Positions 34,459 through 35,521 of a stretch of 64,000 nucleotides of DNA are shown piece after piece. Numbering within the stretch: the stretch's first letter is position 1; the number at the start of each line of letters is the position of its first letter. A program made the translations under genes and the position numbers. Source of the stretch: Persephonella sp. KM09-Lau-8 (lineage in GTDB: Bacteria > Aquificota > Aquificia > Aquificales > Hydrogenothermaceae); NCBI RefSeq assembly GCF_000703085.1, contig NZ_JNLL01000001.1:186001-250000 (forward strand). Reading direction: 5' to 3'. The notes beneath the pieces were generated by a model that ran no database searches, was not told where the DNA came from, and worked only from the letters and a program-made list of their open reading frames with translations.

Positions 34459-34896
34459 TTATTTTTTTAACTCTTCTAAAACAATTCTATCAAATTCTTT
34501 AGCCTGAACTGTATCCCCTATATGTTCAAAGGGTATTTTACCTGTTACACTTGCACCGGGGAATAGATTGTCCACAACTTTTTCAACTTTCATTTCAAAT
34601 ACAGAAATAGGAAAAGGTAATTCTCCTATTTCGTCTACAATAAGCTTTGTTTTCCCTGAAATACTCAGGGCAAACCCTTCGCCAAAAACCTCAACACTTG
34701 CATAAGGGTTTTCTTTTAGATTTTCTGTGGAATAACTGTCCTTACTTAAAGCAAATCTGATGGTATTTTTATCCTTTGCAATTAACCAGGTTATAAATGT
34801 GGTATAAGGCTTATTATCCCTGCTGGTAGCCAGCACCGAAGGAGTTAAATCCTGTAGATAGGGTAGTATATTATCTGGAATAGACTTTTCTGCCAT
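34459..34896 (-). CDS. Pyridoxamine-5'-phosphate-oxidase-fold (flavin-binding) protein
   Basis: The 145-residue protein has the split-barrel fold pattern of the PNPOx-like family. LTPSVLATSRDNKPYTTFITWLIAKD at the start is followed by TIRFALSKDSYSTENLKENPYASVEVFG. Such small members bind FMN, F420 or haem and act as stress-related reductases. The true cofactor here is unknown. AGGAGGAAGAAC precedes the ATG. It stands alone: 250 bases separate it from the TonB receptor start, and speH lies behind its own promoter on the same strand. In the gap 34265-34458 I see no gene, only AT-rich sequence. Confidence 0.75.
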   Translation of the reverse strand: MAEKSIPDNILPYLQDLTPSVLATSRDNKPYTTFITWLIAKDKNTIRFALSKDSYSTENLKENPYASVEVFGEGFALSISGKTKLIVDEIGELPFPISVFEMKVEKVVDNLFPGASVTGKIPFEHIGDTVQAKEFDRIVLEELKK

Positions 34897-34970
34897 TGTT
34901 CTTCCTCCTTTTTAGATTTAAATATAGTAATCCCTTTCAGGAAGAACAATGGTTCATATCACAAAAAACA

Positions 34971-34999: not shown

Positions 35000-35388
35000 A
35001 GTTCTATCTTTTCTATATTGGTTGCAGCTTCGTTTACAGGAACAACTCCCCTTTCCGCAACCTTCTCATCAACTCTCTTAGGCTTGAGCACTTTTAAGAT
35101 ATATTCCATTGCTTTGAATGTTTTTTCCTTTCCGCCACAAGTATAAACATCTATCGCTGCATAGCCATGCTCTGGCCATGTGTGGATTGAGATGTGGGAT
35201 TCTTCAAGAAGGATTACACCTGTTGCACCATGTGGATAGAATTGGTGAAAGTGGGAAGATAATTTACTTAGACCTGCATGCTTGACTGCTCCTTCCAGGA
35301 GCTCTCTTACGTCTTCGACATGGTCAATTTTGTCGAACTCCACTCCATAAAGGTCAGCTAAGATATGCAGTCCGAGGGTTTTTTCCAT
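34987..35388 (-). CDS. speH: S-adenosylmethionine decarboxylase proenzyme SpeH
   Basis: The 133-residue prokaryotic class 1B proenzyme has the self-cleavage site Glu63-Ser64 in EESHISIHTWPE, with Ser64 becoming the pyruvoyl group. The active-site His and Cys are in HTWPEHGYAAIDVYTCG. It makes the aminopropyl donor for spermidine and the long polyamines typical of thermophiles. GGAGGATAG precedes the ATG. This ribosome site and start lie inside a 29-codon leader frame (35358-35447 minus), which suggests translational regulation. It is divergent from metH, another methyl-cycle gene. Confidence 0.95.
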   Translation of the reverse strand: MEKTLGLHILADLYGVEFDKIDHVEDVRELLEGAVKHAGLSKLSSHFHQFYPHGATGVILLEESHISIHTWPEHGYAAIDVYTCGGKEKTFKAMEYILKVLKPKRVDEKVAERGVVPVNEAATNIEKIELETV

Positions 35389-35447
35389 TTTCTATCCTCC
35401 ATTTTCGTTTTTTCAATTAAAAATCGCGTCGGGCTACAACTGCCCAT
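35358..35447 (-). CDS. Candidate leader ORF overlapping the speH start
   Basis: On the minus strand AAAGGAGG is followed nine bases later by ATG at 35447 and a 29-codon frame ending with TAG at 35358-35360. The peptide begins MGSCSPTRFLIEKTKMEDRK. It runs across the speH ribosome site and ATG (35388) in another frame and stops 10 codons inside speH. Its first codons are noticeably GC-richer than the surroundings and include a GGGC/GCCC hairpin. It lies downstream of the predicted speH promoter. A regulatory uORF is inferred; no known leader-peptide family is recognised. Confidence 0.5.
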   Translation of the reverse strand: MGSCSPTRFLIEKTKMEDRKWKKPSDCIS

Positions 35448-35491
35448 GACAAAAAACCTCCTTTAAGGTTTAATAAAATTCGCAACAATAT

Positions 35492-35521
35492 ATTATATGT
35501 TAGCTTTAAATTTTTTTGCAA
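35492..35521 (-). promoter_or_regulatory. Promoter of speH (with leader ORF)
   Basis: Read on the minus strand, TTGCAA (35521-35516), an 18-base spacer and TATAAT (35497-35492). The start of transcription would be near 35485, giving a leader of about 95 bases that contains the leader ORF. Confidence 0.65.

Follow-up and report, generated by a model that had tools for sequence, protein, structure and literature searches.

A dual-coded leader ORF conserved across Aquificales may control the AdoMet decarboxylase gene speH

We found that speH, the gene for S-adenosylmethionine decarboxylase (AdoMetDC), is accompanied in Aquificales by a short leader ORF that starts upstream of the gene and ends inside it. 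In 102 of the 103 Aquificales loci, the leader begins with ATG, keeps one and the same frame with respect to speH, and terminates with a TAG on speH nt 29-31. A short ORF alone could be due to chance, and it is this degree of conservation that speaks against it. The C-terminal residues of the leader appear to be selected so strongly that synonymous sites of speH are held fixed. We lean, with some reserve, towards a translated leader peptide that controls speH in cis, its C-terminus pausing the ribosome at the leader's own stop codon.

Results

The window analyzed here is the whole stretch of 64,000 nucleotides from a contig of Persephonella sp. KM09-Lau-8, in which speH and its leader are encoded on the minus strand (Table 1). 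The first-pass annotation had described a 29-codon ORF with a strong ribosome site overlapping the speH start, and we located the ORF, its Shine-Dalgarno (SD) sequence AAAGGAGG, and its ATG, at 35447, as claimed; the leader passes the SD and the ATG of speH (35388) in a different frame. The GC-rich beginning of the leader does form a hairpin (GGGC/GCCC). The predicted promoter, TTGCAA-N18-TATAAT at 35521-35492, is also present, with 2 matches versus 1.2 expected, which is weak by itself. A TATAAT-like box is found upstream of the leader ATG in 97 of 100 loci and within the leader in 2, suggesting that the leader is probably part of the speH mRNA; transcription is expected to start at about 35485, upstream of the leader.

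Table 1. Features of the leader and speH start region, in window coordinates.
Feature	Positions	Strand	Remark
-35-like hexamer TTGCAA	35516..35521	-	
-10-like hexamer TATAAT	35492..35497	-	TATAAT-like box, same place, in 97/100 relatives
Leader SD AAAGGAGG	35457..35464	-	SD present in 96/103 loci
Leader ORF, 29 codons, MGSCSPTRFLIEKTKMEDRKWKKPSDCIS then stop	35358..35447	-	in-frame ATG and same-place stop in 102/103 Aquificales loci
Hairpin GGGC-N7-GCCC from G of leader ATG	35431..35445	-	Hydrogenothermaceae only, 39/39 versus 2.9 expected
speH SD GGAGG, within leader ORF	35396..35400	-	invariant in Hydrogenothermaceae
Conserved leader C-terminus codons WKKPSDCIS, dual-coding with speH	35361..35387	-	
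CCTC, could pair with GAGG of speH SD	35374..35377	-	possible weak SD-masking hairpin
Leader stop codon TAG (speH nt 29-31)	35358..35360	-	102/102
speH, S-adenosylmethionine decarboxylase proenzyme, 133 aa	34987..35388	-	matches to TIGR03330 and PDB 2iii

The gene downstream of the leader is a genuine AdoMetDC family member, since its product matches TIGR03330 (E 6.7e-41) and is near PDB 2iii (E 1.7e-56), deposited as an AdoMetDC proenzyme. A spermidine-synthase-family gene lies elsewhere in the same genome. AdoMetDC is the source of the aminopropyl group for spermidine and longer polyamines. Hydrogenothermaceae genomes also hold a second AdoMetDC homologue, about 32% identical and without a leader (L002, G000:C1:845226-845576, plus strand), which could be a neofunctionalised arginine/ornithine decarboxylase; pairs of an AdoMetDC homologue and a neofunctionalised decarboxylase have been described (PMC10407285). 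The suggestion that the divergent neighbor metH ties the locus to methionine was not borne out: within the flanks examined, metH adjoins speH in 12 of 39 Hydrogenothermaceae loci and in 0 of 64 others, and because this adjacency is lineage-specific metH was ruled out as a part of the mechanism. We also observed, between speH and the gene that follows it (34459-34896), a perfect 14-bp inverted repeat at 34893-34952 of the window (minus strand; CCATTGTTCTTCCT / AGGAAGAACAATGG, loop 32), which would mask the SD and ATG of that next gene; at the same spot in many Hydrogenothermaceae the arms differ yet are complementary (e.g., L034, L020, L015, and L009).

For the census, speH loci were gathered through SpeH homology alone and the upstream region was then inspected for a leader, the 103 Aquificales loci being those with an intact speH start. 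The 102 leaders end in the consensus W[KQS][KR]PSD[CS][IT][SL] followed by the stop, most often as WKKPSDCIS (40), WQRPSDCIS (30), WQKPSDCIS (15), or WSKPSDCIS (7), while the few remaining variants end in PSDCTL, PSDSIL, or PSDCTS. All 102 leaders have P, S, D, and the stop, and in every one the residue preceding PSD is K or R. The N-termini, in contrast, are highly variable and the leaders range from 19 to 49 residues, with length changes in multiples of three that retain the ATG and the frame (the leader of L158, for example, reads MRHVIFEKLFKNFSREDRKWQRPSDCIS; in L175, an extra in-frame ATG upstream makes the leader formally longer). A visible SD is absent from four f3 leaders (L042, L047, L057, and L058) and from one Aquificaceae leader, L173, and L052 is the sole Aquificales locus without a leader. 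Conservation of the ATG, frame, and codons in relatives, which the first-pass annotation had proposed as a check, came out strongly positive, with order-wide preservation of the ATG, the frame, the stop, and the residues at the C-terminus. Its emphasis on the MGSCSPTRF start has to be shifted: this start is present, but MGSxSPT is limited to one family, Hydrogenothermaceae, and it is the C-terminus, within speH, that is conserved.

An exact search for the DNA motif across 84,980 species gave 77 matches, of which 4 (records of Clostridia, Sphingomonadales, Spirosoma, and Limisoma) lack SpeH and look like chance, the others being Aquificota or SpeH-bearing contigs that carry the same leader. The same motif was observed in a record titled Gammaproteobacteria MAG (L089), a title that is probably wrong.

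Throughout the overlap, position 3 of each speH codon is position 2 of a leader codon, so that speH cannot take a synonymous change at a third position without altering the leader peptide. This stretch inverts the usual codon pattern, with speH third positions frozen and leader-silent first positions varying. On a set of loci unbiased by motif, third-position entropy was 0.0 at T4, L5, G6, and L10 of speH, compared with 1.36-1.88 bits at Leu codons and 1.61-1.94 bits at Gly codons in the rest of the gene (Fisher test, 4e-5 for all loci and 5e-10 for Hydrogenothermaceae, p-values that are optimistic as the sequences are related). Variability in speH codons 4-10 falls mainly on position 1, silent in the leader (codons 4, 5, 7, and 10, the last not being leader-silent where the final residue of the leader changed for other reasons). 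The frozen stretch stops exactly at the leader stop: codon 10 has A at position 3 in all 102 loci, and position 3 of codon 11 is free at once (G/T/A 54/24/24). Two loci are instructive. In L171, SpeH Leu5 is replaced by Ile and the leader Pro is unchanged (CCC to CCA), and in the leaderless L052 speH has drifted at its synonymous sites, which read GGT, TTA, and ATT. As read from the alignments, the C-terminal residues of the leader are under selection strong enough to freeze synonymous sites of speH.

Part of this constraint may have another cause, since synonymous diversity at these codons is likewise reduced in Desulfurobacteriales, which lack the PSD leader (0.42 versus 0.76 elsewhere, in loci partly preselected by motif). 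This milder constraint is what would be expected if ordinary codon or start-region constraint acted on speH and the leader ORF were a passenger. We consider that explanation very improbable, because position 3 of codon 10, invariably A in Aquificales, is A/T/G 13/7/1 in Desulfurobacteriales, the leader ATG and frame survive length changes in multiples of three, and an SD and a promoter precede the leader. Within this outgroup, the ATG leader of family f4 (L142 and L155) likewise stops at the +29 TAG but ends in RWQKHWESTL in place of PSDCIS, suggesting that the overlapping architecture may be older than the PSD motif. The leader of one genus (L138-140 and L147) possibly starts with TTG, and several Desulfurobacteriaceae (L143, L149, L152, L157, and L177) have only an SD and TTGAGTGTTATTTAA before speH, a possible four-codon mini-ORF encoding MSVI.

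Outside the overlap, the in-frame pN/pS of Aquificaceae leaders was 0.44 versus 0.85 in column shuffles, of which 1 in 600 was as low, and the other two frames gave 0.9-1.7 in the three larger groups. The non-overlapping part of the Aquificaceae leader thus carries the signature of a translated protein. By the same comparison, no coding signature was seen in the non-overlapping, N-terminal part of Hydrogenothermaceae leaders. In this family, all 39 loci have a stem of at least 4 G-C pairs on or close to the leader AUG, compared with 0 of 63 elsewhere, and L011 shows a compensatory exchange (GGCC/GGCC) by which the peptide becomes MASGGPT. The presence of the hairpin in all members, together with the missing coding signature, suggests that the N-terminal part represents an RNA hairpin which a single family has acquired, and the MGSxSPT segment is probably at least partly of this nature. 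In one Aquificaceae genus (L045, L049, and relatives), the leader start may form another hairpin, GCAGTTTAAACTGC, unrelated to GGGC/GCCC.

A structural role could also be considered for the overlap itself, which would be kept as an RNA element (a GAGG/CCUC helix, then a CGGACUGC...GC hairpin), perhaps a riboswitch or thermometer. RNAalifold gives the same helices in both Aquificaceae and Hydrogenothermaceae, GAGG/CCUC pairing is possible in Desulfurobacteriales too, and the Hydrogenothermaceae hairpin at the leader AUG is real. These helices, however, are without covariation, no pair having changed on both sides, and L171 has an intact leader peptide but a disrupted SD helix. The Rfam search of the region gave only scores far below the gathering cut-off, hence no match to a known riboswitch or other Rfam element. 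With the constraint ending exactly at the leader stop codon and a coding signature upstream of the overlap, we regard an RNA element as quite improbable. Pairing between the leader ribosome site and the speH start is no better than with permuted partners in Aquificaceae, and this duplex was rejected as a conserved switch.

The leader might otherwise act blindly with respect to its sequence, the translation of any ORF through the speH start damping speH or coupling to it while the peptide senses nothing. This would agree with the strong SD on both ORFs, the stop fixed at +29, and the widely varying N-termini and lengths. Coupling, however, needs no particular C-terminal residues, and the invariant P, S, and D with K or R before them make this reading, in our judgment, unlikely. 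Two further candidates were rejected: a programmed frameshift from the leader into speH, because the A6 stretch is missing in most lineages outside Hydrogenothermaceae, and a trpL-type amino-acid attenuator, there being neither a conserved codon run nor a terminator-like site.

Discussion

The start, frame, stop, and peptide of the leader are conserved in cis and overlap a single gene (102/103), as in the leader peptide class, and conservation is concentrated C-terminally, with a nearly fixed nonapeptide and a variable N-terminus, as in arrest peptides. In the mechanism that we favor, a leader peptide pausing the ribosome at its own stop, the nascent C-terminus would slow termination at a high signal level. 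Taking the standard footprint, a ribosome whose A site holds the TAG would cover about nt 11-43 of speH, and the next ribosome in the queue would be placed on the speH AUG. The stalled ribosome and any queued behind it would occlude the SD and AUG of speH, and enzyme synthesis would fall. When the signal is low, termination would be prompt and speH would be initiated freely or through re-initiation 28 nt back. With the stall site downstream of the start of speH, repression is predicted, in keeping with end-product feedback; a leader so placed could hardly activate speH through stalling. The likeliest candidate for the signal is spermidine or a longer polyamine, although this is the least certain step and we would put it somewhat short of an even chance; polyamine feedback fits the gene and the geometry. 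In Hydrogenothermaceae, the extra hairpin on the leader AUG probably adjusts how the leader is initiated.

Polyamine-responsive uORFs on AdoMetDC genes are textbook cases in animals and plants, and a bacterial case of this logic had been raised by the first-pass annotation. Of this idea, the uORF logic is now well supported by the order-wide ATG, frame, stop, and C-terminus, by the synonymous constraint in the overlap, and by the coding signature in Aquificaceae, polyamine sensing being a putative addition to it. We found no published uORF on a bacterial AdoMetDC gene in the open-licence literature, and the main text of the Aquifex aeolicus dRNA-seq paper does not mention speH (PMC4227106).

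On the mammalian AMD1 mRNA, ribosomes pause at the stop of the MAGDIS uORF at high spermidine and initiation is blocked (PMC13025110, PMC4505036). The Aquificales leader is likewise a short uORF before an AdoMetDC gene, it also ends in I-S-stop with a nearby Asp, and a ribosome paused at its stop would block initiation of the main ORF. It differs in being bacterial, 19-49 residues long, dual-coding, and overlapping the main ORF, which encodes another class of AdoMetDC, and it would block an internal SD and AUG, not scanning. The MAGDIS hexapeptide itself was not found, the leaders ending in PSDCIS and also in PSDCTL or PSDSIL, and the DxIS likeness, three residues with an offset, may be chance.

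SpeFL, a bacterial leader peptide on the mRNA of a polyamine gene, ends upstream of speF, and its stall induces speF. The stop of the Aquificales leader, in contrast, lies inside the main ORF and its geometry predicts repression; informally, we noticed no peptide similarity. SpeFL is the E. coli leader peptide of speF, linked to ornithine, and stalls ribosomes beside its own stop codon (PMC7815308). MdtU, the E. coli leader uORF of mdtJI, has a conserved C-terminus and must be translated for the spermidine response; its target is an exporter, Rho takes part, 106 nt separate its stop from the gene, and spermidine induces (PMC7815308). Like MdtU, the Aquificales leader has a conserved C-terminus and a putative polyamine link, but it ends within the main gene.

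In plants, the polyamine-controlled SAMDC uORF likewise encodes a conserved peptide on an AdoMetDC mRNA, but it is eukaryotic, has about 50 residues, and is not dual-coding with its main ORF. Polyamines are listed among uORF signals in PMC3426882.

In conclusion, the Aquificales leader resembles the AMD1 uORF, SpeFL, and MdtU in anatomy and probably in working, a likeness that is no claim of homology. The fullest reading, a dual-coded arrest peptide inside the AdoMetDC gene that detects polyamine within the ribosome tunnel, stalls at the leader stop, and represses the gene, as a bacterial counterpart of the MAGDIS switch, is put forward tentatively, our doubts outweighing our belief. If true, two domains of life would have arrived independently at one control logic for the same enzyme, and the leader allows such convergence in feedback control to be tested. 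This dual-coding arrangement is out of the ordinary, as the leader would hold part of the enzyme's N-terminal coding sequence fixed, and a motif nearly fixed in 102 thermophile loci provides structural studies with a stable peptide for asking how a ribosome might sense a small cation.
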